A stretch of DNA of 64,000 nt from assembly GCF_000002425.4 (NCBI RefSeq), contig NC_037264.1:14510808-14574807 (forward strand). Reading direction: 5' to 3'. Position 1 is the stretch's first letter, and each line of letters begins with the position of its first letter. This DNA is from Physcomitrium patens (Eukaryota > Streptophyta > Bryopsida > Funariales > Funariaceae). Positions 903 to 39,900 of the stretch are shown here, piece by piece. Under the pieces are notes generated by a model, which was not told where the DNA came from, ran no database searches, and saw only the letters and a list, made by a program, of their open reading frames with translations. Both the position numbers and the translations under genes were made by a program.

Positions 903-907
903 CATCA

Positions 908-1465
908 TGTTAAGGACATGAACATGATAAAAACAAATAAACAAGTGAGACTTCTCTCAAAGAAAGATGACAAAATAGAAATAACTTAATATGTATATTA
1001 AGAAAGAAATTGGAATGGCTATTACCAAAAGCCAAGAAAACTAGAGACCCTTCTAACTAGATTGGAAGCAAGAAACAAGCTGACAAGAGTGAAGAAGGCT
1101 TCACTCGTGTCTCTATATATACTATCTAAATATGGGCTATGTGGCGATGTTCTATTGGACCTCCAATATGTGTTGACTTTGTATGACACATGCCTTGACT
1201 TACAAGGCAAGTTTTTCTACGTGTGGGCCACATAGTTATCTTGGTCTTCAAGCTAACAACATGTGTGGCATATGGCCCACTTGTTGACCACGTTTCTAAT
1301 CCAAAAAGTCAATTAAAGACACCTATAAAGTCAAAGTAGCTTCTATAAAGCTTCTAGGAAGCTTCCATAGTAAATATTATAGAATTAATTTATTTTTATC
1401 TACTTTTATTTACTTCTACTTATTTATACATGTAATTACTGGCTTACATGCGTATATCCATGATA
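908..1465 (-). repeat. 3' LTR of gypsy element A
   Basis: A 558-bp LTR in minus orientation, beginning TATCATGG (a changed TGTCATGG) and ending CCTTAACA. It aligns along its length with the other three LTRs. The degenerate polypurine tract lies just inside at about 1466-1485. Its first 60 bases carry the same variants as the 5' LTR of element B, not those of its own 5' partner at 6737-7291. Confidence 0.88.
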
Positions 1466-1499
1466 TTACCACCGTTTCTAGGGACGAGTTCCACAAAGA

Positions 1500-1950
1500 G
1501 TGGTCATCATACGTTGAAGAAATCTATGATACAACGAATTATATTTGCCACATACTCTGCTCTTTGTTCTCTTCAAAGATGATTGATAGGGCCTCTCAAT
1601 CATTGGTAGTGTCTCATATCAGGGCGAGAAGACCACTCAATTATTTGATCATTGTTGAGGCCTTCATAACTTTCTTTGAATAAAATATTTGGAACACCGT
1701 CAAGACTTGTTCCTACCTCTAGTAAAATCACGAAACATCAGGAGTCCCTTTCAAGGTCCTGATATCAAACGTGTTGTATCTCGCCATCTATTCGAGGAAG
1801 AACATGTCGTTCTTGAAGATCTTCATCTCGATTGCATCGTCTTGAAGGTTGTGACAATTATAATATCTCATTTGGTAGATCAACAAATGAAGGCTCTTGA
1901 GTCAAATCCATTGGTTATTGGTTCTCCACCTCCTCATCGTCATAACTACA
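1500..1950 (-). pseudogene. Relic of extra 3' ORF in gypsy A
   Basis: Between the chromodomain and the 3' LTR, the minus strand is clearly homologous to the intact 140-codon frame at 12936-13358 in element B. Here it is broken by several in-frame stops. A 94-codon frame on the plus strand (1689-1973) is only the antisense shadow of this homology. Its presence in both copies shows the extra frame belonged to their common parent. No function is recognised. Confidence 0.65.
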
Positions 1951-2049
1951 AAGAAGTTATAAACAAGGATTGAAAGTAGAATGTTATCTTGCTTAGATTT
2001 TATTTATTTTATAAAGAAGGTTTTTATCTTGATTTTGATATATGTCGTC

Positions 2050-5000
2050 GATGAAAAGCCTCCACTACCTTTGTTGTATTTACAAGGTTCTTTACTGGCT
2101 CCCATGTGCATTCATTAATATCATATCCGAGTCAATGGACAAGATATTCTAATTTATTTTTGCACTGCCTTGAATCTAAGACTTCTTTTACTTCAAACTC
2201 TTCATTATTGTCTACTTTTATAGGAAGAAGTAGAGCTTGTCTTCTTCTTGGTATGTTCACTATCTTATATGGTTCAAGAAGAGACACGTGGAATACTGGA
2301 TGGATTTTTATTGACTCCGGTAGATATAAATAAGATGCAACTGGATTGATTTGTGCAGAAATAGAAAATGGTCCAAGCCTTCGATAGTCCAACTTATCAC
2401 AAGGACGAGTAGTCTTGATATTACATCAAAATAACCATATCTTATCACCCATGTAGAATAGTGATTGTTCTTTTCCATAGACATCCGCATTGATCTTTTG
2501 TTCTTGAGCTTCTTTTAACTGCCCCTTCATCGTTGCATGTAGCTTTGACAAAAGAATTACCAAATCTTTTGTAGCAGGATTATCAACTTTTGAAAAGTCA
2601 AAATTATCAAGTCGTGGATGATAACCATAATTGGCAAAGAAAGGTGTTTGTTTTATAGAAGAATGTACCGTATTATTGTAAGCAAACTCTTTCAATGACA
2701 AAAGAGTTGTCCAATCATTTTGTTGGTAATTAATGGTACATCTTAAATACTACTCCAAAATTGGATTGACACGCTCCATTTATCTATCAGTTTGAGGATG
2801 GAATGCCAAAGATAGTTTTATATCCACTTTTAGAATCTTGAAAAAAATTCGATAAAATCTTGATACAAATTGAGTTCCCATATGTGATATAATATCCTTC
2901 GATAATCCATAATAGCGATAGATATTGTCAAGAAAGAGCTTAGCTCTTTCTTCACCTCTGATAGATTTTGTACATGGTATAAAATGTGTCATCTTTATAA
3001 AATGATCTACTATCACAAATATAGAGTCATAAGAACGTGTGATTGGAAGATCCATGATGAAATCTATAGAAACATAAGACCATGGTTGTTCTAGAATGGG
3101 TAATGGCTAAAGAAGACCATAAGGTCGATGACGAGGAGTTTTTGATCTCGAGCAAACATCACAAGATTATACAAAATCTTTGACTGCTTTCCACATTTGT
3201 AGCCACCAAAAGTCCCTGGATATTAGTTCCAAAGTCTTATTGTATCCAAAATGTCCTACTGCTGGAAAGTCATGACGAGCTTGAAGAACACGTAATCGAG
3301 TTTTACCTTTTAGAACATATAGGCGTCCCTCGAAATATAGTAGATTGTTCTTGAATTCAAACTTGGAAGTATCATGAGACTTTGAAGGATTTTCTTTAAT
3401 ATCACAAATAAGAGGATCAGAAGACATACTTGACTGAACTTGCTTAATGAAAGTTGAATCAACAGTTAGTGTTGATTTCATTACTCGAAGATGAAGATAC
3501 TCTAACTTTTAGAGAATTATCCGTTATTGATCAAAAGCAGCATCTCCTTCTTTTGGTACAAGGTAAGATTGTCTAAAAAATGCATCTGATAAATCTTGTT
3601 GTTTTCTTAGTCGATAAGTGATCTTGAATTTGAATCTTGACAAAGACTTACTCCAACGGGCTTAGCAATGATTTAAAATACGTGCTGACATAAAATATTC
3701 AAGGTTCTTATAATCTGTATACACTGAGACTTGGCTAGAAGCACATTCTAAATAATGGCACCATTCTTGAAATAAATCCACAAATGCAAGAAGTTCTTTG
3801 TCGTGGATCTCGTAGTTGATCTCGGGTGCTGAAAATTTTTAAGAATGAAAAGCTATTGGATGAAGTTTACCATTTCTTTCCATTTGTGACAATATGGCAC
3901 TCAAAGCAAAGTCTGATGCATCTGTTTCCATAAAAAATGGCTTAGAAAAATCGACGCCATACAAGATTGGTACAAAAACAAAGGCTGTCTTTAAAGCTTC
4001 AAATGCTACTTTTGCTTCTTGATTCTATTGAAGTTTTTCTTTACAAGTCAAACGAATAAGTGGAGCTGCAACTTGAGAAAAGTCTTTGATGAAGATCCGA
4101 TAGTAGTTGGCAAATTCCAAAAAGCATTGGACATCTCTTATCATTTTTGGAATCTTCCAATCAATAATAATTTGAATTTTTTTAGGATCCATCATAAGTC
4201 CATCATTTGAAATAATGTATCCTAAGAAGTCGACTTGAATAGTGTAAAATACACACTTTTTTTTATATCGACATAGAGTCCCACATCTCTTAGTTTTTGT
4301 AATATACGATGAATATGAAGTTCATATTCTTTTATGTTCTTAAAATAGATTAAGATGTCGTCTAAGTAACAAACAATAAAATCATCTAAAAACTCATGAA
4401 AGACATCATTTATTAGATGTTGGAATGCTACTGGTGCATTTATAAGTCCAAAAGGCATGACATTATATTCAAAATATCCATACCTTGTTCAAAATACAAT
4501 CTTCTATTCATCTCCTTTTTTGATGCGTATCAGATTGTATGCTCTTTGTAGATCTATTTTTGTATAGATCTTAGCTTGATTCAACTAATCAAGGAGTCCA
4601 GATATCAAAGGTAGCAAGTACTTGTTTTTGATAGTAATTTTGTTGAGTCCTCAATAATCAACACACATCTGCAATGATCCGTCTTTTTTCTTCACAAATA
4701 AAATTGGAACTCCTGCTAGAGATTTGGAATAGTGTATGAAGTTCTTAGCCAAATTCTCTTCAATATACTTCTTGAGTTCAGCCAAATCATTTTGAGATAA
4801 ATTGTAGATTGGTCCAAATGATGGCTGTGCTCCTTCTTAAAGGTCAATTGAGGAGTCACAAAAATGATGTTTTGGAAGAGTGTCCGCATTCTTCTTCTCA
4901 AATACATCTTGAAAATCTTGATATTTGCTTGGAATGCCACTTGAAGTCTTTCCACTAGTAGCAACAAGTGTGGCATAAATGACATAAGGTGATCCTTCTT

Positions 5001-5560
5001 TTGCAGCATGTAAGAAAGCTCTTGCACCTACAAATATAAGTTTAATTATACTACACTTATGACTTTCTACTTAATTAATTATACTCTTAGTTATACTTTC
5101 AAAAAAGTCAAGACTACGAGAAGTTCAATTTATTTTAGGATTATATTTTTTTAGCCATGATAAATCTAAAATGATTGGATTAGAGGGAGATCTAATGATA
5201 TTAAACACTACAAAGCTATTATGACCATTGATTATTACTTCTATAGGAATGGTTTCATGAGTAATATCTCCAAAAGGCAATGGACGACCATCTATGACTT
5301 CTACATGAACAGCTTTAGTTTTCTTCACTAAAATTATGCTATGTCTTTTAGTAAATTCTTCATCTAAGAAACATGCTGAGGCTCATGAATCTAGAAAGGC
5401 CGAGGCTTTGTTATGTTTAGGTTGTAGAATAATATTTATTGTAAAACATGAAGAGGATTCTGAGGAGAGGATAGGACCTTCACTAGGTGTTGTACAAGGT
5501 TCCAGCCCCATGATTCCTATTGTAGCTAGACAAATTTGTTTTTTGATATGCTATCTATTT
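2050..5560 (-). pseudogene. Decayed pol of gypsy A (PR-RT-RH-IN-chromodomain)
   Basis: The minus strand encodes fragments of a gypsy polyprotein. The protease region lies near 5125-5400, with the DSGA active-site motif interrupted by TGA at 5383-5385. An RT fragment at 4222-4458 includes CYLDDILIY, the YLDD-type catalytic motif. RNase H follows at about 3500-4000. A zinc-binding integrase N-terminus lies at 3167-3481, and the integrase core is split between 2780-3055 and 2426-2701. A chromodomain at about 2060-2160 ends in a TWEPVKNL...VVEAFH stretch. The coding potential is broken into at least eight frames, so no functional enzyme is expected. Outside the gag-proximal part it differs from element B at roughly one residue in five to eight. 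Confidence 0.88.
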
Positions 5561-5569
5561 TGATCGCCA

Positions 5570-6530
5570 TACTCCTCATTTTATGGTTGCGTTGCTTTTT
5601 TGGGCAATATTGAGTAGTGTGCTTAGGTTCTTGATAATATAAGCATAATCCTTCTTGGTGACGATGAATCTTTTCTTACTTAGTAAGAACTTTGAAACGT
5701 ACTACATTAATTTGCATATCATCTACTTTCGAATGTATGTGTTGAAGAGATGTTGGTGTTGCCATTGAATTATAGTAACGTTGAGGTCCACTTCTATGGT
5801 TCTCAGATTGGAATTCAAAAAGGCAATTGTCATACTTCATAGCAAAGTCAATTGTTTGACTCAATGTTTGAGGATCAAGTAAGTTGAGCATTAATTTTTT
5901 TATCTCATATTGTAATCCATAGAAAAATTGGCTAATAAGTGCACCATCATCCTACTTGATATCAGTTGCAAGTTGTCAAAATTGTGAAGCATACAATGTT
6001 ACAGATCAATTGCCTTGTCACAAAATATAGATCTTATTAGTTGCAACATGAATTGAATCATGTTCTCCATACATGGATCAAAAGTCCACTAAAAAAGCCT
6101 TTAGATTATCCAATATTGGATCTCTTCGTTCAAGAAAAGATGAAAACCACGATAATGTTGAACCTGAAAGAAGCATACCAATGAATCTAACTTAAGAACT
6201 TAGAGTTGAATAGCTTTGGAGTTGAAGTTCAATCACAAGTTGTACTTGATTGATAAATCCTCTAAACTTTGATCTGGTACCATCAAACTTCTCAGATAGG
6301 ATAATTCTTGGTTCTTTAATACTGGAAGGGTGTTCTACTATTGGAAAAGGGACATGATTTGGTGCAGATGTTGAAGCAGCTCCAATCATTTCTATATCTT
6401 TACTTCTTGTTAATCTTGTTGTTCCTTGTGGTGGTAAATTGAGTTGATGCATTGTAAGCATTAACTCCTTCAATTGCTCTTGCATTTGTGCCATTGCATT
6501 CTTTATTTAAGCAAGTTCTATCATGATTAT
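5570..6530 (-). pseudogene. Decayed gag of gypsy A
   Basis: The minus strand carries two gag blocks: 6192-6494 (N-terminal, MAQMQEQLKEL...) and 5676-5891 (C-terminal). They are followed by a degenerate zinc knuckle, about 5620-5660, in which the second Cys is Tyr. The same two blocks occur in element B at 8342-8674 and 8975-9190 with only a few residue differences. They also share internal stops, such as the stop after the PSS/LSS end of the first block. Sharing dead-end mutations implies that this part was copied after the reading frame had already decayed. Confidence 0.85.
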
Positions 6531-6704
6531 ACTTAAAAAAGAAAAGATGTCTAATATCGCTCAAGACAAATAGAAGAGAGGACTTGAGAAGAAAGAAAAT
6601 ACTAAGGACAATATCAATTTAGAAGAGGGTAATCTGTAACTTCTAATATGCTTATGTCTTATCATGAGAAATAGATAATCCACTCTTAATCAAGATTAGA
6701 GAAA

Positions 6705-6714
6705 GCTCTGATAT
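6705..6714 (-). other. Possible primer-binding site, gypsy A
   Basis: On the minus strand this reads ATATCAGAGC, close to the TGGTATCAGAGC complementary to the initiator methionine tRNA 3' end used by many plant LTR elements. It lies about 22 bases inside the LTR edge, further than usual, and the first two bases differ. Element B has the same sequence at 8152-8161. Confidence 0.4.
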
Positions 6715-6736
6715 TGTAAGTGTACTCTTATCAATC

Positions 6737-7291
6737 TATCAAGGACAAGAACATGATAAAAATAAATAAATAAGTGAGACTTCTCTTAAAGAAAGTTGAA
6801 AAAATAGAAATAACTTGATATGTATATTAAGAAAGAAACTTGAATGGCTATTGTCAAAAGCCAAGAAAACTAAAAACCCTTGAAACTAGACTAGAAACAA
6901 GAAAGGAATTGACAAGAGTGAAGAAAGCTTCATTCTTGTCTCTATATATACTATCTAACTAGGGGCTACGTGGTGATGTTCTATTGGACCTCCAATATGT
7001 GTTGACTTTGTATGACACATGCCTTGACTTACAAGGCAGGATTTTCTACGTGTGAGCCATATCGTTAGCTTGATCTTCAAGCTAACAACATGTGTAGCAC
7101 ATGGCCATGTTGACCACGTTTCTAATCCAAAAAGTCATATATAGACACCTATAAAGTCAAAGCAGCATCTATGCGACTTTTAGAAAGCTTCTTTGGTAAA
7201 TATTATAGAATTAACTTACTTTTATCTACTTTTACTTACTTCTACCTATTTCTATATGTAATTATTAGCTTACATGATTATGGCCATGACA
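6737..7291 (-). repeat. 5' LTR of gypsy element A
   Basis: A 555-bp LTR in minus orientation, from TGTCATGG (at 7291) to CCTTGATA (at 6737). Beyond about 60 bases from its outer edge it is nearly identical to the 5' LTR of element B (7575-8129) and clearly different from its own 3' LTR. Its outer 60 bases instead carry the CCATAATCAT and AAGCTAA variants of the 3' LTR of element B. Confidence 0.9.
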
Positions 7292-7574
7292 CATACTCAA
7301 GCTTATTTTCCTAACACATGAATGGAGTTTGACTGATTATATTATCATAGAGTTGATGAACGTTTTAGTGCGAATGAAATATTAAACGTGAGATATTTTG
7401 TGATTAATGCCAGCACATTAGTTTCACAATTTTGTAGAATATGTTGAATTTTAAAAAAAATATTTCTAATTGAAACCATGTGGAGAAGTGGGAGGTAACC
7501 TAAATGAAAAAATAAATGAAAAAATAAAATGAATCAAAGATCACTTGAAAATGAGAAAGAAAAAATAGATGATG
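7292..7574. other. Spacer between head-to-head gypsy elements
   Basis: A 283-bp AT-rich segment with no gene seen. Its edges are target sites: CATAC at 7292-7296 and TGATG at 7570-7574. Each is the reverse complement of the distal flank of the opposite element. The spacer therefore appears to be inverted relative to its orientation when the two elements first inserted. Confidence 0.8.
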
Positions 7575-8129
7575 TGTCATGGACATACACATGTAAGCCA
7601 ATTATTACATGTATAAATAAGTAGAAGTAAGTAAAAGTAGATAAAAGTAAGTTAATTCTATAATATTTATTAAAGAAGCTTTCTAAAAGCCACATAGATG
7701 CTGCTTTGACTTTATAGGTGTCTATATATGACTTTTTGGATTAGAAACGTGGTCAACATGGCCATGTGCTACACATGTTGTTAGCTTGAAGACCAAGGTA
7801 ACGATATGGCTCACACGTAGAAAATCCTGCCTTGTAAGTCAAGGCATGTGTCATACAAAGTCAACACATATTGGAGGTCCAATAGAACATCACCACGTAG
7901 CCTCTAGTTAGATAGTATATATAGAGACAAGAATGAAGCTTTCTTCACTCTTGTCAATTCCTTTCTTGTTTCTAGTCTAGTTTCAAGGGTTTTTAGTTTT
8001 CTTGGCTTTTGACAATAGCCATTCAAGTTTCTTTCTTAATATACATATCAAGTTATTTCTATTTTTTCAACTTTCTTTAAGAGAAGTCTCACTTATTTAT
8101 TTATTTTTATCATGTTCTTGTCCTTGATA
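7575..8129 (+). repeat. 5' LTR of gypsy element B
   Basis: A 555-bp LTR from TGTCATGG to CCTTGATA. Most of it is a near-perfect inverted copy of 6737-7291. Its outer 60 bases instead carry the variants of the 3' LTR of element A (for example ACATGTATAAATAAG). It should contain the promoter; a TATATATA box-like stretch lies near 7916-7923. Confidence 0.9.
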
Positions 8130-8151
8130 GATTGATAAGAGTACACTTACA

Positions 8152-8161
8152 ATATCAGAGC
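8152..8161 (+). other. Possible primer-binding site, gypsy B
   Basis: ATATCAGAGC resembles the initiator-methionine-tRNA primer site TGGTATCAGAGC but lies 22 bases downstream of the LTR edge. It is identical to the site in element A. Confidence 0.4.
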
Positions 8162-8341
8162 TTTCTCTAATCTTGATTAAGAGTGGATTATCTATTTCTC
8201 ATGATAAGACATAAGCATATTAGAAGTTACAGATTACCCTCTTCTAAATTGATATTGTCCTTAGTATTTTCTTTCTTCTCAAGTCCTCTCTTCTATTTGT
8301 CTTGAGCGATATTAGACATCTTTTCTTTTTTAAGTATAATC

Positions 8342-9340
8342 ATGATAGAACTTGCTAAAATAAAGAATGCAATGGCACAAATGCAAGAGCAATTGAAGGA
8401 GTTAATGCTTACAATGCATCAACTCAATTTACCACCACAAGGAACAACAAGATTAACAAGAAGTAAAGATATAGAAATGATTGGAGCTGCTTCAACATCT
8501 GCACCAAATCATGTCCCTTTTCCAATAGTAGAACACCCTTCCAGTATTAAAGAACCAAGAATTATCCTATCTGAGGAGTTTGATGGTACCAGATCAAAGT
8601 TTAGAGGATTTATCAATCAAGTACAACTTGTGATTGAACTTCAACTCCAAAGCTATTCAACTCCAAGTTCTTAAGTTAGATTCATTGGTATGCTTCTTTC
8701 AGGTTCAACATTATCGTGGTTTTCATCTTTTCTTGAACGAAGAGATCCAATATTGGATAATCTAAAGGCTTTTTTGGTGGACTTTTGATCCATGTATGGA
8801 GAACATCATTCAATTCATGTTGCAACTAATAAGATCTATATTTTGTGACAAGGCAATTGATCTGTAACATTGTATGCTTCACAATTTTGACAACTTGCAA
8901 CTGATATCAAGTAGGATGATGGTGCACTTATTAGCCAATTTTTCTATGGATTACAATATGAGATAAAAAAATTAATGCTCAACTTACTTGATCCTCAAAC
9001 ATTGAGTCAAACAATTGACTTTGCTGTGAAGTATGACAATTGTCTTTTTGAATTCCAATCTGAGAACCATAGAAGTGGACCTCAATGTTACTATAATTCA
9101 ATGGCAACACCAACATCTCTTCAACACATACATTTGAAAGTAGATGATATGCAAATTGATGCAGTACGTTTCAAAGTTCTTATTAAGTAAGAAAAGACTC
9201 ATCATCGTCAAGAAGGATTATGTTTATATTATGGAGAACCAAAGCACACTACTCAATATTGTCCAAAAAAACGATGCAATCACAAAATGAGGAGTATGGC
9301 TGTGAAAGAAGATAATATGTCAGAAAACGAGTTTGTCTAG
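8342..9340 (+). pseudogene. Decayed gag of gypsy B
   Basis: Two gag blocks survive: 8342-8674 (110 codons) and 8975-9190 (71 codons), separated by stops and frame changes. A degenerate CCHC zinc knuckle follows at about 9215-9275, with the second Cys read as Tyr (CLYYGEPKHTTQYC). Gag would package the element RNA. The blocks match those of element A almost exactly, including the interrupting stops. Confidence 0.85.
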
Positions 9341-9399
9341 CTACAATAGGGACCATGCGGCTGGAACCTTGCACAACTTCTAGTAAAGGTCCTATTCTA

Positions 9400-12300
9400 T
9401 CCTCGGAGCCCTCTCCTTGTTTTACATTAAATGTTATTTTAGGACCTAAACATTACAAAGTCTCTGCCTTATTAGATTCATGAGCCTCAGCGTGTTTTTT
9501 AGATGAAGAATTTACTAAAAGACATAGCATATCTTTAGTAAAGAAAACTAAACTTGTTCATGTAGAAGTCATAGATGGTCGTCCATTGTCTTCTAGAGAT
9601 ATTACTCATGAAACCCTTCCTATAGAAGTAATAATAAATGGTCATAATAGCTTTGTAGTATTAAATATCATTAGATCTCTCTCTAATCCAGTCATTTTAG
9701 ATTTATCGTGGTTAGAAAAATACAACCCTAAAATAGATTGGATTTCCCGAACTCTTAATTTCTCTAAAAGTATAACTAACAGTGTAGTTAAGCAAGTAGA
9801 GAGTCATAAGTCCAGTTCAATTAAACCCGAATTTATAGGAGCAAAAGCTTTCTTGCATGCTGCTATGAAAGAATCACCATACATTATTTATGCTACACCC
9901 GTTTCTACTAGTGAAAAGACTTCAAGTGGCATTCGAAGCCAATATCAAGAATTTCAAGATATATTTGAAAAAAAGAATGCGGATACACTCTCGGAACATC
10001 GTCCCTATGATTGCTCAATTGACCTTCAAGAAGGAGCACAACCGCCATTCAGACCAATCTATAGTTTATCACAAAATGAGTTGGCTGAACTCAAGGAGTA
10101 TATTGAAGAAAATCTAGCCAAGAATTTCATACGCCACTCTAAATCTCCGACAGGAGCTCCAATTCTAATTGTGAAAAAAAAAGATGGATCATTGCGGATG
10201 TGTGTTGATTATCGAGGACTCAACAAGATTACCATCAAAAATAGGTATCCACTACCTTTAATGTCCGGACTTCTTGATCAGCTGAATCAAGCTAAGATCT
10301 ATACAAAAATAGATCTTCGGAGAGCATATAATCTAGTACGCATCAAAGAAGGAGATGAATGGAAGACTGCATTTCGAACTAAGTATGGACATTTTGAATA
10401 CAACGTCATGCCTTTTAGACTTACAAATTCACCAGCAGCTTTTCAACATCTAATGAATGATGTTTTTGAAGAGTTTTTGGACGATTTTGTGGTATGTTAT
10501 CTAGACGACATCTTGATCTATTCTAAGAATCCAAAAGAACATGAACTTCATGTTCATCATGTGTTACAAAAATTAAGAGATGCAGGACTCTATGCCAAGA
10601 TAGAAAAGTGTGTATTCCACACTACTCAAGTCGATTTCTTAGGTTACATCATTTCAAATGATGGACTTATGATGGATCCTAAGAAAGTTCAAACTATTAT
10701 AGATTAGAAGATTCCAAAAACGGTAAGAGATGTCCAATGTTTTTTGGGATTTGCCAACTACTATCGGATCTTTATCAAAGACTTCTCTTGAATTGCAGCT
10801 CCACTTACACGTTTGACTTGTAAAGACAAACTCCAATGGAATCAAGAAGCAGAAGTTGCTTTTAACTCTTTGAAGACAACATTTGTTTCTGCACCAATCT
10901 TGTATCGTGTTGATTTTTCCAAAGCATTCTTTATGGAAACAGATGCATTGGATTTTGCTCTGGGTGTGGTTTTATTACAAATAGGAACAGATGATAAACT
11001 TCATTCAGTAGCCTTTCATTCAAAAAATTTTCAGCAGCAGAAATCAATTATGAGATCCATGACAAAGAACTTCTTGTAATTGTGGATTCTTTTCAAGAAT
11101 AGCATCATTATCTAGAAGGCGCTTCTAGTCCAGTCACCGTGTATACGGATCACAAGAATCGCGAATATTTTATGTCAACACGCGTATTAAATCGTCGCCA
11201 AGCTCGTTGGAGCATGTCTTTATCAAGATTCGAGTTCATCATCACTTATCGGCCAGGAAAACAACAAGGTTTATCCGTTGCGTTGTCTAGACGTTCTTAT
11301 CTTGCACCAAAAGAAGGAGATGCAGCTTTTGAGCAACAAAGAACGGTTCTCTTGAAGTCGGAACAATTTCATCTTCGAGCAAAAAAATCAACATTGGCTG
11401 TTGATTTAACTTTCCTTAAGCAAGTCTAGTTAAGTATGTCTTCAAACCCTCTTGTTCATGATATCAAGAATAATTCTTCAAAATCTCATGATCCATCTAA
11501 ATTTGAATTCAAGAACAATATACTCTATTTTGAAGGATCCTATATATTCCAGAAAGAGAAGCACGTTTATGTGTTCTTCAAGCTCGTCACGACTTCCCAG
11601 CAGCATGACATTTCAGACATAATAAGACTTTGGAGCTGATATCTAGGGATTTTTGGTGGCCTCAAATCTGAAAGGCAGTTAAAGATTTTGTACAATCATG
11701 TGATGTTTGCTCAAGATCAAAAACTCCTCGTCATCGATCTTTTGGACTTCTTCAGCCATTACCCATTCCAGAACAACCATGGTCTTCTGTTTCTATGGAC
11801 TTCATCACGGATCTTCCAATCTCAGGTTCTTATGACTCTATATTCATGATAGTAGATCGTTTTACCAAGATGGCACATTTTGTACCATGTACAAAATCTA
11901 TCACAGGTGAAGAAATAGCTAAACTCTTTCTTGACAATATCTATCGCTATCATGGATTACCCAAAGAAATTATATCAGATAGGAGAACTCAATTTGTATC
12001 AAGATTTTGGCGGACTCTTTTCAAGATTCTTAAAGTGGATATAAAACTATCTTCGACATTCCATCCTCAAATTGATGGACAAACGGAGCGTGTTAATCAA
12101 ATTTTAGAGCAATATTTAAGATGTACCATTAATTACCAACAAGATGATTGGACAACTCTTTTGCCATTAGCAGAGTTTGCTTACAATAACACGGTACACT
12201 CTTCTACAAAACAAACACCTTTCTTTACTAATTATGGTTATCATCCACGACTTGATACTTTTGACTTTTTAAAAATTGATAATCTTGCTACGAAAGATTT

Positions 12301-12800
12301 GGTAATTCATTTATTCGAGCTACATTTAACGATGAAGGGGCAGTTAAAAGAGGCTCAAGAACAACAAAAGGCCAATGCAGATGTCTATCGAAAGGAACAA
12401 CCATCATTCGTCTTGAGTGATAAGGTATAGCTACTTCGTCGTAATATCAAGACCACTCGTCCTTGTAACAAGTTAGACTATCGAAGGCTGGGACCATTTT
12501 CTATTTCTGCACAAATCAATCCAGTTGCATATCGTTTACATCTACTGGAGTCAATAAAAATCCATCCAGTATTCCACGTGTCTCTTCTTGAACCATACAA
12601 GACAGTGGGCATACCAAGAAGATGACAAGCTCCACCTCCTCCTATAGAAGTGGACAATAATGAAGAGTTTGAAGTAGAAGAAGTCTTAGATTCAAGGCGA
12701 CGCTGAAATAAATTAGAATATCTTGTCCATTGGCGCGGATATGGTATTAGTGAACGCACATGGAAGTCAATAAAGAATCTTGCAAATGCAGCAAAGGTGG
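9400..12800 (+). pseudogene. Decayed pol of gypsy B (PR-RT-RH-IN-chromodomain)
   Basis: The protease motif DSGA is interrupted by TGA at 9481-9483. A long frame at 9586-10707 carries the protease C-terminus and RT, with catalytic YLDD in CYLDDILIYSK and the usual MPFGLTNAPA changed to MPFRLTNSPA. RNase H fragments lie at 10813-11079 and 11139-11429. The zinc-binding part of integrase is around 11450-11730 with stops. The integrase core at 11795-12430 has DFITDLP, SDRRTQFVS and GQTERVNQ, around the D,D,E triad. A chromodomain at about 12715-12816 shows LVHWRGYG and TW, then KVVEAFH. Multiple stops exclude a functional polyprotein. Confidence 0.9.
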
Positions 12801-12935
12801 TGGAGGCTTTTCATTGACAACATCCATCAAAATCAAGATGAAAACCTTCTTTATAAAAGAAACATCATCTAGGCAAGATAACATTCTACTTTCAATTCTT
12901 ATTCGTAGCTCCATTGTAGTAGTGGCGCTCACGAG

Positions 12936-13358
12936 ATGGAGAACCAACAACCAGCAGATTCAACTCAAGAGCCTTCATTTGCTGACCTATCGGACGAGAC
13001 ATTACGATTGTCACAACCTTCAAGACGACGTAATCGAGATGAAGATCTTCAAGAACGACATGTTCTTCCTCGAATAGATGGTGAGATACAACGCGTTTGG
13101 TATCACGATTTGGGAAAGGACTCCCGATGTTTGGTGATTTTGGTAGAGGTAGGAACAATTCCTGATAGTGTTCCAAATATTCTATTCGAAGGAAGTTACG
13201 AATGCCTCAACAATAATCAAATAATTGGGTGGTCTTCCTGCCCTGGTATGAGACACTACCGATGGTTGAGAGGCCCCATCAATCATCTTCGAAGAGAACA
13301 GAGATCAGAGTATGTGGCGAATACAATTCGTCGCATCATAGATTTCTTCAACATATGA
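12936..13358 (+). CDS. Extra 3' ORF of gypsy B, unknown function
   Basis: A 140-codon frame begins MENQQPADSTQEPSFADLSD and ends IIDFFNI. It lies in sense orientation between the chromodomain and the polypurine tract, where standard gypsy elements have no gene. The N-terminal third is rich in Gln, Ser, Asp and Arg. The rest looks folded, with several Trp, Cys and Tyr residues (VWYHDLGK, IIGWSSC). No signal peptide, membrane segment or known motif is visible. It is intact although pol upstream is broken, and a decayed homologue lies at the same place in element A. Stops separate it from the chromodomain frame, so it would need its own initiation or a spliced RNA. It may be a captured gene or an accessory protein. 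Confidence 0.5.
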   Translation: MENQQPADSTQEPSFADLSDETLRLSQPSRRRNRDEDLQERHVLPRIDGEIQRVWYHDLGKDSRCLVILVEVGTIPDSVPNILFEGSYECLNNNQIIGWSSCPGMRHYRWLRGPINHLRREQRSEYVANTIRRIIDFFNI

Positions 13359-13386
13359 TGACCGCTCCTCGTGGAACTCGTCCCTA

Positions 13387-13398
13387 GAAGGGGGGTAA
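13387..13398 (+). other. Polypurine tract, gypsy B
   Basis: AGAAGGGGGGTA lies immediately before the 3' LTR (TGTCACGG), the expected place for the plus-strand DNA primer. Confidence 0.7.
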
Positions 13399-13959
13399 TG
13401 TCACGGCCATAATCATATAAGCTAATAATTACATATAGAAATAGATAGAAGTAAATAAAAGTAGATAAAAGTAAGTTAATTCTATAATATTTAATATGGA
13501 AGCTTCTTAGAAACTTCCTAGATGTTGCTTTGACTTCATAGGTGTCTTTAATTGACTTTTTGGATTAGAAACGTGGTCAACAAGTTGGCCATGTGCCACA
13601 CAAGTTCTTAGCTTGAAGATCAAGCTAACTATGTGGCCCACACGTAGAAAAACTTGCCTTGTAAGTCAAGGCATGTGCCGTACAAAGTCAACACATATTG
13701 GAGGTCCTATAGAACGTCGCCACGTAGCCCCTAGTTAGAGAGTATATATAGAGACAAGAGTGAAGGCTTCTTCACTCTTGTCAACTCCTTTCTTGCTTCT
13801 AGTCTAGTTTCAAGGATCTCTAGTTTTCTTGTCTTTTGGCAATAGCCATTCCAGTTTCTCTTTCAATATATATACTTGTTTATGTATATTTTGTTACCTC
13901 TCTTTGAGTGAAGGCTCACTTGTCTGAATTGTTTTTTCATCGAGTTCTTGTCCTTGACA
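13399..13959 (+). repeat. 3' LTR of gypsy element B
   Basis: A 561-bp LTR from TGTCACGG to CCTTGACA, with perfect 5-bp terminal inverted ends (TGTCA/TGACA). It is noticeably diverged from its own 5' LTR. Its first 60 bases match the 5' LTR of element A. It is followed by GTATG at 13960-13964. Confidence 0.9.
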
Positions 13960-14049
13960 GTATGATACTTTTGATGTCTTTGTGATTGCTAATTACTCTT
14001 CCATATGTACTTTTTTTTTTTATTTTAAAAGTAACCAATTATATGATTC

Positions 14050-16003: not shown

Positions 16004-17108
16004 TTATTTTCTATCTCTCAGAGGATATCTCCTTTCATTTGAAGAAGATTCAACTTGTTGCACTCCATCATCACCTCCAACCTTCTTTTCTTTTGAAGAT
16101 AGTCTTTTCTCACTCAAAGGTTCATAATCCTCATCACCATCATCACCAACATCTTCATTGCTAGTCTTAGCAATTATAGAGGCCTTCTTGTCTACCTTCT
16201 TTGCCTCTTCATCTTCATTTCTACCTTTATAACCATCATTATCTTTGTCTTCTTTCTTCTTTGCTGAATTTGAAGATGTGTCCACAAACACACCATTACT
16301 CCTACTTGGATACATCTCTAAGTGCTCACAAGGACTCTTGTGCTCCAAAAATTCAACATCATGAATTTTGATGATCTTTTTAGTCTCCAAACACATGAGC
16401 CTATAAGCCTTTGTACCTTCAAAATATCCCACAAAAATACATTTTGTATCTTTTGCATCAAATTTTGATGTCATAGAATTTGGTATCTTTGCATATATTA
16501 TGCATCCAAAGGTCCTCATATGAAAAATACAAGGTTTTCTCCCACTCCAAGCTTCTTCCAGCATTATTGATGTAAATACACTTGTAGGACACCTATTTCT
16601 TATGTATACTGCATTCACCACTGCTTCCGCCCAAAACTCATGTCCAAGTTGTTTTTGCATGAAGCATACTCCTTGTCATCTCCACAATGGTCCAATTTGT
16701 TCTTTTAGCAACTCCATTTTGTTGTGGAGTTCAAGGAGTGGAGGTTTGTCTTGCAATACTATGCATCTTCAAAAAATCATTGAATTGCTTTAATATATAC
16801 TCACCTCTATTCTCTATATGGAATACCTTGATTTTGCATTCACATTGCTTCTCCACAAGTGCCTTAAACTCCTTAAACCTTGTGAAACACTCATTCTTTG
16901 CTTTGAGGATGAAAATCCATACCTTCTTTGAAAAATCATCAATGAATGTGACAAAATACCTTGCACCTCCTATTGATGGCATCCTCATAGGTCCACAAAC
17001 ATCAGAATGGATGATCTCCAATAACTTGGTTGCACGTGTTGCAACTCTACTTGGAAATGAGGCCTTTTGTTGTTTACCTTGAATGCAACCTTCATAAGCA
17101 AGTGTCAT
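16004..17108 (-). pseudogene. copia integrase core and linker remnants
   Basis: 16731-17108 encodes the GKQ motif, HSDVCGPM (first catalytic Asp) and FIDDFSKKVW. The second site, usually DNGGEY, is changed to ENRGEY. A frame change then leads to 16004-16660, with GHEFWAEAVVNAVYIRNRCP (third region and C-terminal integrase) and an acidic linker before RT. The HHCC zinc-binding N-terminus is absent, consistent with the deletion upstream. Confidence 0.88.
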
Positions 17109-19193: not shown

Positions 19194-20930
19194 CTACCTG
19201 TGTCTGTGCTTACCGCCGTCTTCTGTAATAGGATTGCCTTTCCGCATCATAGCAACAAACTCGTCGTAGTCTATTCTCCCGTCGCGGTCTGTGTCCACCT
19301 CATTGATAATCTCTTGAATTGTTTGCGGATCTCCCATTCCATTCTTCTCCATTGCTTCCTGCAGCTCGTCAATGGTAATATATCCGCTGCCGTCCGTATC
19401 AAAATGACTGAATGCTGCAAAGAGATGATCCTCCATTTCCAACTTGTTCATGTGCATTGTGGCAGATATGAACTCGTTGAAGTCTATCTTCCCATTCCCA
19501 TCTACGTCGGCTGCTTCCATCAGCTCGCGTATGTCGGACTCTCTGAGTTTCGAGCCTTGTCTGAGTAAACCGTCTTTGAGTTCCTCAAATGTCACCATAC
19601 CGCTGTTGTCGGTATCCATTGACTTGAAGAGCTCCCGCAACCCTACGATCTCTTCTTCTGACAGATTCTTTGCAATAACCTTCAGCGCAAGCTTCTTCAT
19701 CTTGTTGGCGGTGGAGAAGTTCTTCAGTCTGGTCAGCACCGCATTGTCAAGTGGCGTGTCAGAGGCGTCACCTCCTTCCTCCATCCATGGATGGTTCAAC
19801 ACCTGGTATGCTGTCAGCCGCTCCTTCACATTCATATTCAACATCTTCCTCACAAGGTCCTTGGCCCCGCTAGAGATTTTCGGCCACGGATCGCTTACAA
19901 AATCAATGTGGCCTCTTAGCACAGCGTCAAAAATTCCTTGCTCTGTTTCAGCCCAGAATGGTGGAACTCCGCACAAAAGAATGTACACAATCACGCCGGC
20001 GCTCCACACATCAGCTTCAGGCCCGTAATTCCGCCTCAAGACCTCTGGAGCGACATAGTACGCACTTCCGACAATATCATGGAAGACCTCACCGGGCTTG
20101 AAGAAAGTCGAAAGACCAAAGTCCGTTGCTTTCAGCTGCGCATCCTCAGCTTCGCTGGACAACAGAAAATTCTCAGGCTTCAGATCCCTGTGAAACACGC
20201 CTAGAGTGTGGCATCTGTGTACCACATTCACAATGACCCTGCACAAATCAGCGGCGGCTCGCTCGCTGTAATGCCCCTTGGCTATAATGCGATCGAAAAG
20301 CTCTCCACCCGCACAGAGCTCCATGACAAGATGCACGGAATGCCTGTCCTCATACACTCCCTTCAAATCCACGATGTTGGGAGTTCCCGACAAATGGTGC
20401 ATTATCTGGACTTCCCGCTTAACATCCTCGACATCTTCTTTGGTAGTCAGCTTCCGCTTGGCTATACTCTTGCAGGCGAGAATTTCACCCGTTGTTTTGT
20501 GAGTGCACAAGTAGGTCACTCCAAACTGGCCTCGGCCGAGCTCCCGACCAAGCGAATACGTCTGGCGAATGTCCACCAGCGGCTTCCCCAAAACGCCGTT
20601 CGCCGAATAGGACGTCGGCCGGGGCCTAGGCATAGGGGCCGACATCGGACCAGGAGGACGCTCGGAGGGTGTGGCACCAGAGCTAGGTCTTGCTGCATGG
20701 CCACCCTCCGCGTGTGTGCTCCCCGTGGTCGCTGGACGAGTGCTGCCATCCTGTTTGTGCTGGGTACCTCCGCCATAACTGCTGGCAACCGCGCTTGAGC
20801 GCTGAGTGCTGCCTTCGTACATTGGTCTTTCGCTCTCATTCTTCTGCCGAGGATCTGTAGGCCTGCCCAGATTCATTCCCTTCGTCCCATGTCCACGATT
20901 CTTTCTTGGGCGTCCGCTGATATTCCCCAT
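19194..20930 (-). CDS. Calcium-dependent protein kinase (CDPK-1)
   Basis: A complete 578-residue plant CDPK in one uninterrupted frame. Residues 1-120 are a variable Gly/Ser/Pro-rich region starting MGNISGRP, so Gly2 is a likely myristoylation site; no Cys follows for palmitoylation. The Ser/Thr kinase domain spans about 125-383: GRGQFGV loop, ATP-binding Lys154, HRDLKPEN with catalytic Asp249, DFG 270-272, APE 294-296. The autoinhibitory junction follows (about 390-425, [19 protein letters not shown]). Four full EF-hands lie at 439-450, 475-486, 511-522 and 546-557. All key residues are present, so a calcium-activated kinase is expected. CDPK genes usually have several introns; this coding region has none. 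A paralogue lies about 14 kb away on the same strand. Confidence 0.96.
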
Positions 20931-35225: not shown

Positions 35226-36929
35226 CTAGTACCTATGTCTATGGTTATGTTTCTCGCCCTCTTCTGCACCAGGATTGCCTTTCCGCATCATAGCTACGAA
35301 TTCGTCGTAATCTATTCTCCCATCGTTGTCTGTATCCACCTCATCAATGATCTCTTGAATTGTATCGTAATCTCCAACACCATTCTCCTCCAGTGCTTGC
35401 TGTAGTTCAAAGACGGTGATGTACCCACTGTTATCCCGATCGAAGTGATGGAATGCGGCGAACAGGTGATCTTCCTTCTCGAGCTTGTTCATATGCATTG
35501 TTGCTGAGATGAACTCGTTGAAGTCAATCTTCCCGTTCCCATCTAAGTCAGCTGATTCCATCAGCTTGGCAATGTCCGATTCAGAGAATTTGCTACCCTG
35601 TTTTATCAAACCTTCTTTCAGCTCCAGAAGGGTCACCGTCCCGCTATTGTCGACATCTATGGACTTAAACAACTGCCTCAACCCTGCGATCTCTTCTTCC
35701 GACAGATTCTGGGCTATCACCTTCAGTGCCAGCTTCTTCATCTTGTTGGCAGCAGAAAAGTTCTTCAATCTGGTCAACACTGCATTGTCAAGTGGCGCAT
35801 TGGAAGCGCCATCCTCCTTCATCCATGGATGATCCAACACCTGCTGGGCCGTAAGGCGCGCATTCACATCGGGGTTCAACATACCCTTCACTAGGACTTT
35901 AGCGTCATCCGAAATTCTCGGCCATGGATCGCTCGTGAAGTCAAGAGTCCCTCGCATGATCGCATCGAAAATCCCTTTCTCCGTTTCCGCCCAAAACGGT
36001 GGCACTCCACACAACAAGATATACAAGATAACACCAGCGCTCCATACGTCGGCTTCGGGACCGTAATCTTTTCTTAAGACTTCGGGGGCGATGTAGTAAG
36101 CAGTTCCCACAAGGTCCTGGAACCTCTCGCCAGGCTTGAAGAATGTCGAAAGACCAAAATCTGTGGCTTTCAGAGGTGCGTCCTCAGCCATGCTAGTGAA
36201 CAGGAAATTCTCGGGCTTCAGATCCCGGTGGAACACGCCCAACGAGTGGCACCTGTGCACAACGTTCACGATGACCCTGCACAAATCAGAAGCAGCTCGC
36301 TCACTGTAACATTTCTTAGCAACGATGCGATCGAAAAGCTCTCCGCCCGCACACAGCTCCATCACGAGGTGTATATTGTGCTTGTCCTCGAATACCGCTT
36401 TCAGTGTGACAATATTGAGAGTTCCCGAGAGATGATGCATGATCTGAACCTCCCGCTTGACATCCTCAATGTCGTCCTTGTGTGTGAGCTTCCGCTTGGC
36501 TATGGTCTTGCATGCGTAAACTTCATTCGTGTCCTTGTGGGTGCAGGTGTAAGTCACCCCAAACTCGCCGCGGCCGAGCTCCTTACCCAGCGTGTATGAA
36601 TTCAAGATGTCCGACAGAGGCTTCCCTAAGAATCCCGGCGCGACAGGCTTGGGCTTAGGAACAGGTGGAGTATACTTTGGTGCTTGTCTGTAACCACCGG
36701 CGTTGCCATGGCTGCCACCCCTTGGCTGGGTGCTTCCGCCTTGATTGCTGCCTCTAGGCTGAGTGCTTCCGCCCTGATTGCATCCCCTTGGTTGTGTGCT
36801 TCCGCCGTGGCCACTGCCCCTCGGATAGCTGCCCTCATTCCTCGGATAACTACCCTGCGACGACCCTCCCTGAGAACCCCCACCGCTACCCTTCCGACTA
36901 TCTCTCGGCCTCCCGCTTGAGTTGCCCAT
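35226..36929 (-). CDS. Calcium-dependent protein kinase (CDPK-2)
   Basis: A 567-residue CDPK in one uninterrupted frame. The start is taken at MGNSSGRP (36929) because it is the first ATG and supplies Gly2 for myristoylation; the frame extends 9 codons upstream only through GTG. The N-terminal region (1-110) contains three GGSTQPRG repeats (42-72). The kinase domain runs about 112-370: GRGEFGV, Lys141, [17 protein letters not shown]. The autoinhibitory junction ([19 protein letters not shown]) and four canonical EF-hands follow ([48 protein letters not shown]), ending HNHRHRY. All catalytic and calcium-binding residues are intact. It is closely similar to CDPK-1 outside the N-terminus and also lacks coding introns. 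Confidence 0.96.
36630..36810 (-). repeat. 33-bp tandem repeats in CDPK-2 N-terminus
   Basis: In-frame repeats encode [22 protein letters not shown] and [11 protein letters not shown] (residues 42-74). CDPK-1 has only scattered GSTQ/GSTR/GSTH motifs at the same place, so the array expanded after the copies parted, or contracted in CDPK-1. Confidence 0.75.
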
Positions 36930-39900
36930 GTCGCCGAATTTCGGATTCACAATCACAAACCTTCAAAATTGCTGACAAGCTCGCTTCTTCCCCCCGTGCT
37001 CAAAGCTTCAAAAGCCACTTTCAGCGAGCTGTTGTGACATGAGTGAGAACAAGCAACCTAAATGAGATACTAGAAGGTCTCGAAGGTTCCATTAGATTAC
37101 TGACGTCCCATACTGATCTCCAGGGCGTGCCTTGAATCTAGAGGAGCCTGCAGGGATCCAAAATTCCCAGGTGTAATCTACGTTTCTTCGAAACCTAAAT
37201 AACTCTCTCCGGTGATGCTCCGCGTGCGCACGAGGCCCCAGAAGTGGATGCACAGTTTGACATGGTTCACTTTCAAGGAATTGCCAGCGAGGAGCACCGT
37301 TCATTCAGCTCTGACTCGGACGACGAAACGGAGCACATTCAGCTGGCCATTCTGTGTTACATGCTCTATTCGCGGCAACTTGTTGTGTAGAATAGTGGTT
37401 TTGTGACGATGGAAAAAAATCATGTTTGCAATAACTGAGGTTACCAGTTGAAGTTTTCCACACTAGTCAAAAAAAGCAAACTCAAAAATGTGTTCCACAC
37501 GTTCCAAAAGAAAAGAAAAGTGTCAGAGCATTAAAAGCTTGTACCACCAGCTAGTCACAAGTATGGAAGGCTCTATTTTATAATGTGCATTCACCTTTCA
37601 TTCCGAACGACTACTGACACAACCTGAAGTTGATTGACGTCAGAATGATGCGTGGACAGTTACGACAAGGCTAAGTCAGCGTCATTTCCAGCTACAAGAG
37701 CGAAGACCTTTCCACTTTGTATGACGCATCCATCAGCTTCATGGATCAGAGTGCATAGAGTTCCTCGTAGAACACTGTGTCCTTGAAACCCTCCCAACTC
37801 AATCGACTGTCTCCGACGTCGGATCGTAAGTTCCACTCAGATTCAATCCTAGAAGAGTTATTTATCGAAATAAATATTCTTACTGAGGTTTTTTAGCTTG
37901 AAGTGGTTGTACACGAGGGGGGTTAGTTGTTTGTCAAATTAGGCTAGTACAAGAGGCTGTAGAGTGTGTATCCCTCACTTGGGGAACTCAAAGCACGAGT
38001 TACTGAGGATTTTTGGGGGTTTCAGTCCCTCACTGTTGAACTGTGCTCAATAGTTGTAAGTAAAAATTAAAAAATAAAAAAATGATTTTTATATACTGAA
38101 ACCACAATACAATCATCTTAATGATTTTATTTACTTATTTATTCGTACTTTGTTAAAGAGTAGAGAATGCATCAAATACAACAAGAAGAACAGATTAGTT
38201 AAGTAATTTACTTATGCTCATATTCTTGGTTAAGTATCCATTTACAAGATTAATATTTAAACAATATGACATACCATTGTGAAAGTTAAAATATATATAT
38301 ATATATATATATATATAATAATGAAGACAGAAACAGTTTATATATATATATATATTATCTGTTTCTGTCTTCATTATTAAAACCAAGGAAAATTTTGACT
38401 ACACTGGAAAAAAAGATCATGATTAATGCCAAATGAAATTATTTTAGTTGGGGCTTAGCAATGTTTTAGAAAGCTATCCCACAACAATCAAAGTAGTGAT
38501 AATGGTCCTCATGATTTTACTACAGTTCTAGTACAGCCCTGTGTTCCAGACACGTTCCCGAGAATTTGTCTAACGGTCACGATTAAACCTTGTGATCTGA
38601 AGGCTGAGAGGCCTCGAGCCAAACAAATTGATAAAGATATTCCTTTTAATTTCGGCATGAATTCATTCTCACAAGATTTTGTGTCCTGAAACATATACCA
38701 CATATTGAAGAAAAGTCGATAACAGGTGGAATAAACGACAAGCTCTACATGACAATAGTGCTTGTGAAATGACCATATATCATTGACTAGGATGTGACTC
38801 GTGGCTGTAGAGACGAAGTTTGAAAAAAACTAAAACCCAGCTGTGGGTTCGTCTAAAAACACTTCTTAATGATTTCTCATCTCGCCATGATATATTAGAA
38901 TTTCCATAACTCGTGAGTTTTGAGAAACAAACTAGAAAGTGCCTTCTGTAACGCTGTGATCTGATTTGTGGAATATCACTTCACTCCTATTCAGAATGTG
39001 TGAAAGTTATGTCTGATTTCGATCGTTTACAACTGAAAAGCACTCTCTTAAATGTTGGAAGTCAACGCACACATTTGTAGGAAAAGAGCGTGTTGAAACA
39101 GACAAGCATACCGTTGGATAACAACAAACAGGACTAGCCAAGGGCAATACGAAAGTTCAACCTCAAGAATCTGACGTTGTGTACAATAGTAGGAAGTTTT
39201 AACCATACATGGCAGACTATCTCTCTCGATTATGCACAAGCTTTCGAAACTCTGAGAAATTATCTGAGAACACGTCTACCACCTTTGGTGTTAGCATTTT
39301 TCATTAATAAGCACCCTCTTTTTCAAACACATGGACTGAGATAGTTCTACAGGAAGAATCTGCTGTTCAAAGAGGAACAACATAGCTCATTTGATGACTA
39401 ACTTGGCAAAACCTCTCCAAAAACTTCACTATAATTAGCACGGGTACAAGAAGACTAAACATTCTGGGTGACAATGGTAAATTCCGTTACAACGTATGAA
39501 TTATGTTTCTGCAGCTCACTGGCATGCAATCTACGATAGTGGGTCTTACTACAAACAAAACTCGATTCCTAACAAAAATATAGGGGATTTGCTCACTTTC
39601 ACTCCTCCACAATGGCAAGCTCTGCAAAATAGCATTAGAAAAGATACTTAGAAGCCGTTTCATCCGCTTGTCACCAACACACCAGGTAGTTACTCAGCCA
39701 AAAAATACATAGGAACTCAAGGATTACTTCAAAAGCTCCTGATAGAAATGTTGCCCGAGTTCACCAAACTAAAATCACTTCACTATTCTCAGATCACACA
39801 ACGTCTAGAATCGTTACCATACCTCCATTGGATGTCAAACTGTCTGCCAGCGTCTCATCAGCGGTGCTCATCTTTTCTGTAAAGTGCAAGCAAGCACAAG

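Follow-up and report, generated by a model that had tools for sequence, protein, structure and literature searches.

Why should two neighbouring retrotransposons each lack a matching target-site duplication of their own, when each of their flanks matches, in reverse complement, a flank of the other? The question is raised by a 64,000-nucleotide stretch of the Physcomitrium patens genome (NC_037264.1, positions 14,510,808 to 14,574,807; the whole stretch is called the window here), in which two long terminal repeat (LTR) retrotransposons, A and B, lie head to head in opposite orientation, with their 5' ends facing and 283 bp between them. From the sequence it appears likely that the inverted copies recombined long after both had been inserted, by a crossover that inverted the spacer together with gene conversion from one arm to the other. 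The pair is regarded as a recombination scar, and no function is inferred for it.

Exchanged target sites and LTR edges

Element A, a degenerate LTR retrotransposon, occupies 908-7291 on the minus strand, as delimited by self-comparison and by reading of the LTR edges, with its 5' end at 7291 facing B. Element B, a Ty3/gypsy-type LTR retrotransposon with broken reading frames, occupies 7575-13959 on the plus strand. The spacer between them, read as inverted, spans 7292-7574 (283 bp including two 5-bp target-site copies). On the plus strand, the outer target-site copy of A is CATCA (903-907), and the 5-mer that adjoins its other end now is CATAC (7292-7296); TGATG (7570-7574) now adjoins B, the outer copy of which is GTATG (13960-13964). 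As the original prediction had claimed, these 5-mers mismatch within A and within B and match crosswise: TGATG is the reverse complement of CATCA on the A side, and CATAC is that of GTATG on the B side. When the spacer is turned back, matching 5-bp target-site duplications are restored for both elements. Given the 5-mer frequencies of the window, both of these given pairs would be reverse-complementary by chance with a probability of 2.2e-6. Upstream 5-mers were also compared for 37 of the 38 family matches fetched as controls, and none of the 666 pairings was reverse-complementary.

The controls come from a family search that listed 42 matches, namely the window's two 5' LTRs and 40 others, of which 38 were fetched; copies of the family are abundant, as a first look with a single LTR gave 9975 candidates, 40 of which were scored. 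From the adjacent bases, 33 of the 38 were called 5' or 3' by eye, and fetching of the expected mate positions gave two complete LTRs for 9, a partial mate for 6, and no mate for 18. The 38 matches and the 9 mates form a comparison set of 47 other LTRs; its members were picked by likeness to the B 5' LTR, both LTRs of nine elements are included, and the set is neither random nor wholly independent. Among the nine complete pairs, the 5-bp duplication is exact in four, has one mismatch in one, and shows no match in four, one of which is truncated at its start while another seems to belong to a tandem array. A missing duplication is thus ordinary in this family, and therefore the evidential weight rests on the crosswise match. 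Exact 5-bp duplications (GATGA, GTGCA, and ATATG) surround the family LTRs L019, L027, and L030, respectively, which are apparently solo LTRs.

The LTR edges were compared by site patterns in an alignment of four LTRs: the 5' LTR (A5, right, 6737-7291) and 3' LTR (A3, left, 908-1465) of A on the minus strand, and the 5' LTR (B5, 7575-8129) and 3' LTR (B3, 13399-13959) of B on the plus strand. In the outer 62 columns, the swapped pattern, in which A5 agrees with B3 and B5 agrees with A3, is seen at six sites and, as a half-site, at one more; one site (57) pairs A5 with B5, and none pairs the LTRs within an element. The six swapped sites and the half-swapped one are located at LTR positions 9-46. 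In the inner LTR columns, the two 5' LTRs agree with each other at 28 sites, one site is swapped, one is half-swapped, and none shows the full within-element pattern, which is seen only as one half-site, at 96. The distribution of swapped and 5'-5' sites over outer and inner columns gives 2.4e-5 in a Fisher test. The A5/B3 states C9, A14, and G40 are present in none of the 47 other LTRs, and no member of that set, within which the occurrence of a B-type edge in other copies was judged, exceeds four of the seven swapped-type states. The A5 edge is read as characteristic of the B lineage, and it now sits on A; the edge haplotype of interest is GGCCATAATCAT...ATAGAAATAG.

The swapped edges comprise the first 46 bp of each 5' LTR, with a B-type edge at 7246-7291 (minus strand) on A and an edge pairing with A3 at 7575-7620 (plus strand) on B. 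Since the last swapped site is at 46 and the first clear change confined to A5 and B5 is at 99, the outer switch is placed at 46-99. A switch had been expected in the outer 60 bases; it is found, but its range is not confined to them. The proposed crosswise pairing of the edges is borne out by the alignment, in which no full informative site pairs within an element. Turning the spacer back together with the LTR edges thus restores both the target sites and the pairing of edges within elements, which supports the inversion of the 283-bp spacer that had been suggested.

It could still be argued that the 5-mers match by chance and that the LTR edges were exchanged through local gene conversion with no inversion, particularly as target sites frequently mismatch within elements of this family. 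However, two chance matches (~2e-6) would then also have to coincide with the independent evidence of the LTR edges, the pairing of which includes states absent from all 47 other copies, and this explanation is extremely improbable. Chance, and a pairing of edges within elements, were both rejected on the 5-mer statistics and the four-LTR site patterns.

The homogenised tract and the proposed course of recombination

A homogenised tract extends over element positions 47-1583, which correspond to 5709-7245 (minus strand) in A and 7621-9157 (plus strand) in B. The full-length alignment of A and B shows 88% identity, and in 100-column windows the identity is 90% at the edge, 96-100% at 101-1600, and 75-94% beyond. 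The elements differ at 12 of the first 118 columns, at 12 of the 1465 columns of the tract, and at 723 of 4807 columns beyond it; that is, differences amount to 0.8% in the tract versus 15.0% beyond, with a sharp boundary. The log-likelihood of a three-segment model exceeds that of a uniform rate by 161 and that of a two-segment model by 16. The outer limit of the tract lies at 46-140 by likelihood and at 46-99 by shared changes, and the inner (right) limit at 1551-1583 by likelihood segmentation. The longest identical run between A and B is 453 bp inside the tract and 52 bp outside. Past the edge, the identity of A5 and B5 is 0.986, compared with a maximum of 0.950 when the 47 other LTRs are compared with one another (1081 pairs). 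Within elements, the two LTRs of A have an identity of 0.885 beyond the edges and those of B one of 0.859, compared with 0.901-0.930 in the nine controls. The changes A99, A150, A154, C253, and a 3-bp deletion, common to A5 and B5, are found in none of the 47 other LTRs.

The original prediction held that an inversion explains everything in one step. The inversion stands, but the tract had been missed, and a bare crossover would leave ~99% identity over ~1.5 kb unexplained. Since crossover alone does not homogenise, gene conversion must have taken part, either in the same event or earlier.

A proposed course of events can be described as follows. Two related Ty3/gypsy-type elements would have inserted in opposite orientation at target sites 273 bp apart, A at CATCA and B at GTATG, as the crosswise matches show. 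Each would then have aged, with the LTRs of A diverging by ~11%. Much later, pairing of the inverted copies would have led to recombination, for which a single chromatid is the simplest setting. The crossover would have turned over the spacer plus the LTR edges, and ~1.5 kb from the 5' end of one element would have been copied to the other, probably A's onto B's. The resulting right element would be A-derived from its edge to ~1583, and the resulting left element would be B-derived only across its first 46-99 bp. Exactly this product would arise from a single crossover next to a conversion tract or, at a replication fork, from a double template switch of equivalent effect, and one event would suffice since each arm then needs a single junction (likewise with B as donor). 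A is probably the donor, since two rare states in the tract (positions 279 and 307), one of them found in 1 and the other in 0 of the 47 other LTRs, are shared with A3, whereas no such state is shared with B3. Judged by the 0.8% differences in the tract versus the LTR divergence within the elements, the recombination would be about one-tenth the age of the insertions, in relative terms only, and it looks young beside them.

Alternatively, a non-crossover conversion of the 5' ends may have come first, followed by a crossover within the tract that inverted the spacer. The end product would be identical to that of the one-step event, and a homogenised tract would have been a better crossover substrate. 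In the human Y palindrome P6, 56 conversions versus 3 inversions were counted among 83 phased chromosomes (PMC3723533); since conversions there far outnumber inversions, an earlier conversion is likely a priori. On the other hand, one event is enough, and no site was found that separates conversion and crossover in time. Such a two-event history is a variant of recombination between the inverted copies, with which it shares part of its probability, and it may be put at somewhat below an even chance. It is doubtful, furthermore, that the spacer is a flip-flop that has turned over repeatedly, with both orientations coexisting among accessions and the tract refreshed each time. Homologous recombination in the nucleus of P. 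patens is unusually efficient.

Several points weigh against recombination between the two elements as set out above. Target-site mismatch is ordinary in the family, being seen in four of nine controls. Inside the tract, differences between A5 and B5 persist at 96, 97, 116, and 118, and the pattern at 219 and 224 is swapped or half-swapped. Conversion may have been patchy, or the crossover may have lain deeper in the arm, and since T219 is present in 4 of the 47 other LTRs, repeated mutation is possible at that site. The donor call rests on just two sites, and a further lean toward A (30 versus 18 sites) is confounded and adds little because B3 is more diverged than A3 (median identity to other LTRs of 0.879 and 0.904, respectively). 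In a plant LTR survey, conversion between elements was much rarer than within elements, with little in P. patens (PMC7251063). Finally, the spacer orientation was judged from one genome assembly.

With respect to the last point, the spacer may truly be in its original orientation and may have been flipped by the assembler within near-identical arms, in which case the tract would be real and the inversion would not. In a review, Sanger whole-genome shotgun sequencing (v1) and a genetic map are given for the P. patens genome (PMC13120521). Within the arms there are identical runs of 453, 218, and 218 bp, and the swapped-like sites 219 and 224 would suit a false join further in. However, the window is without any N and adjacent arm differences are at most 454 bp apart, a distance that a Sanger read of ordinary length can bridge, and an error is therefore less likely. 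Two matching false joins would also be needed, and alleles would not have been mixed, the moss being haploid in its dominant phase. An assembly error is unlikely overall. When an empty site was sought in the P. patens genome, the spacer proved to be single-copy, and the only other match, of 49 bp on a different contig, was weak; around it the flanks gave short, weak matches only. Open frames across the spacer junctions favour neither orientation, and a 62-codon frame lies inside the spacer both ways.

Comparison with known systems

Recombination of this kind is already known from Galileo inversions and human Y palindromes, and the moss pair is a clean new case of it; no published report of the locus was found in the open-licence literature, which is a weak negative. 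For inversion 2z3 of Drosophila buzzatii, exchanged duplications and chimeric opposite copies of Galileo were the proof used (PMC2775673). A and B likewise belong to a single family, lie in opposite orientation, and show exchanged target-site duplications and chimeric structure, and ectopic recombination is deduced for them by the reasoning applied to 2z3 (PMC2775673). However, Galileo is a DNA transposon, 2z3 is a chromosomal inversion, and non-inverted chromosomes were available for comparison (PMC2775673), whereas the moss pair consists of LTR elements with a 283-bp spacer and a long conversion tract, and it has no comparison chromosome.

In P6, inverted arms are also homogenised by conversion, in multi-kilobase tracts (2068 bp on average), and inversions, which arise by intrachromatid crossover, are rare (PMC3723533). 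The P6 arms are large duplications that are >99.9% alike (PMC3723533), whereas the moss arms are independently inserted elements that are ~85% alike outside the tract. As in such palindromes, the identity of the A and B arms is above the expectation from their age, with a sharp boundary at 1551-1583. The plant LTR survey, conducted with GENECONV and including P. patens, showed that inter-element conversion exists, with converted lengths mostly of 100-1000 bp (PMC7251063). It is genome-wide; the word 'inverted' is absent from its main text, where no pair of opposed elements around a flipped spacer was found (PMC7251063).

As a natural record of how inverted retrotransposons recombine in a plant, the moss pair is unusually legible: its target sites and LTR edges have been preserved, and so has a conversion tract, the ends of which are mapped. 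For inverted pairs of this kind, dating by LTR divergence and checks of target sites break down, since a comparison of A's or B's own LTRs mixes histories. A genome-wide screen of such pairs could count crossovers versus conversions in P. patens, a moss used for gene targeting. Two family LTR matches in opposite orientation lie 4 bp apart at C2:24042666-24043219 (L042) and C2:24042270-24042661, the latter partial and 77% alike to the query; they are a possible further inverted pair.

Structure of the elements and other features of the window

A domain scan, made of B only, gave the order RVT_1, RT_RNaseH, rve, and SH3_Tf2-1. The reverse transcriptase piece (RVT_1) lies at 9586-10707 and the integrase piece (rve) downstream of it at 11672-12427, both on the plus strand, in Ty3/gypsy order. 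Since the integrase is downstream of reverse transcriptase and RNase H in B and A aligns over its whole length, both elements are assigned to the Ty3/gypsy type; a first guess of copia type was dropped when reverse transcriptase was found upstream of integrase. Stops break both elements. On the minus strand, GAAACGGTGGTAA precedes the A 3' LTR and aligns with the purine-rich tract of B, and the primer-binding-like TATCAGAGC comes after the A 5' LTR; the B 3' LTR is preceded by AAGGGGGGTAA. The B 3' LTR has TG...CA termini, which are present in many of the 38 fetched relatives, while both 5' LTRs start with TG and end with ATA, and the A 3' LTR starts with TA and ends with CA. These departures are taken as mutations. 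The P. patens RLG1 family has an integrase with a chromodomain (PMC7466625); no chromodomain was detected at E <= 0.01 in eight broken pieces of B.

Near B, a piece at 16004-16660 (minus strand) with a retroviral polymerase SH3-like domain (PF25597) is perhaps from another LTR element. Further along, two uninterrupted frames on the minus strand, 19194-20930 and 35226-36956 (578 and 576 aa), encode a kinase domain followed by EF hands, with four and three EF-hand_1 stretches, respectively, as in the calcium-dependent protein kinase type, and their DNA is 76% alike over 1351 bp. An exportin-T frame at 43965-45812 (minus strand) shows 100% identity to a P. patens protein over 95% of its length.

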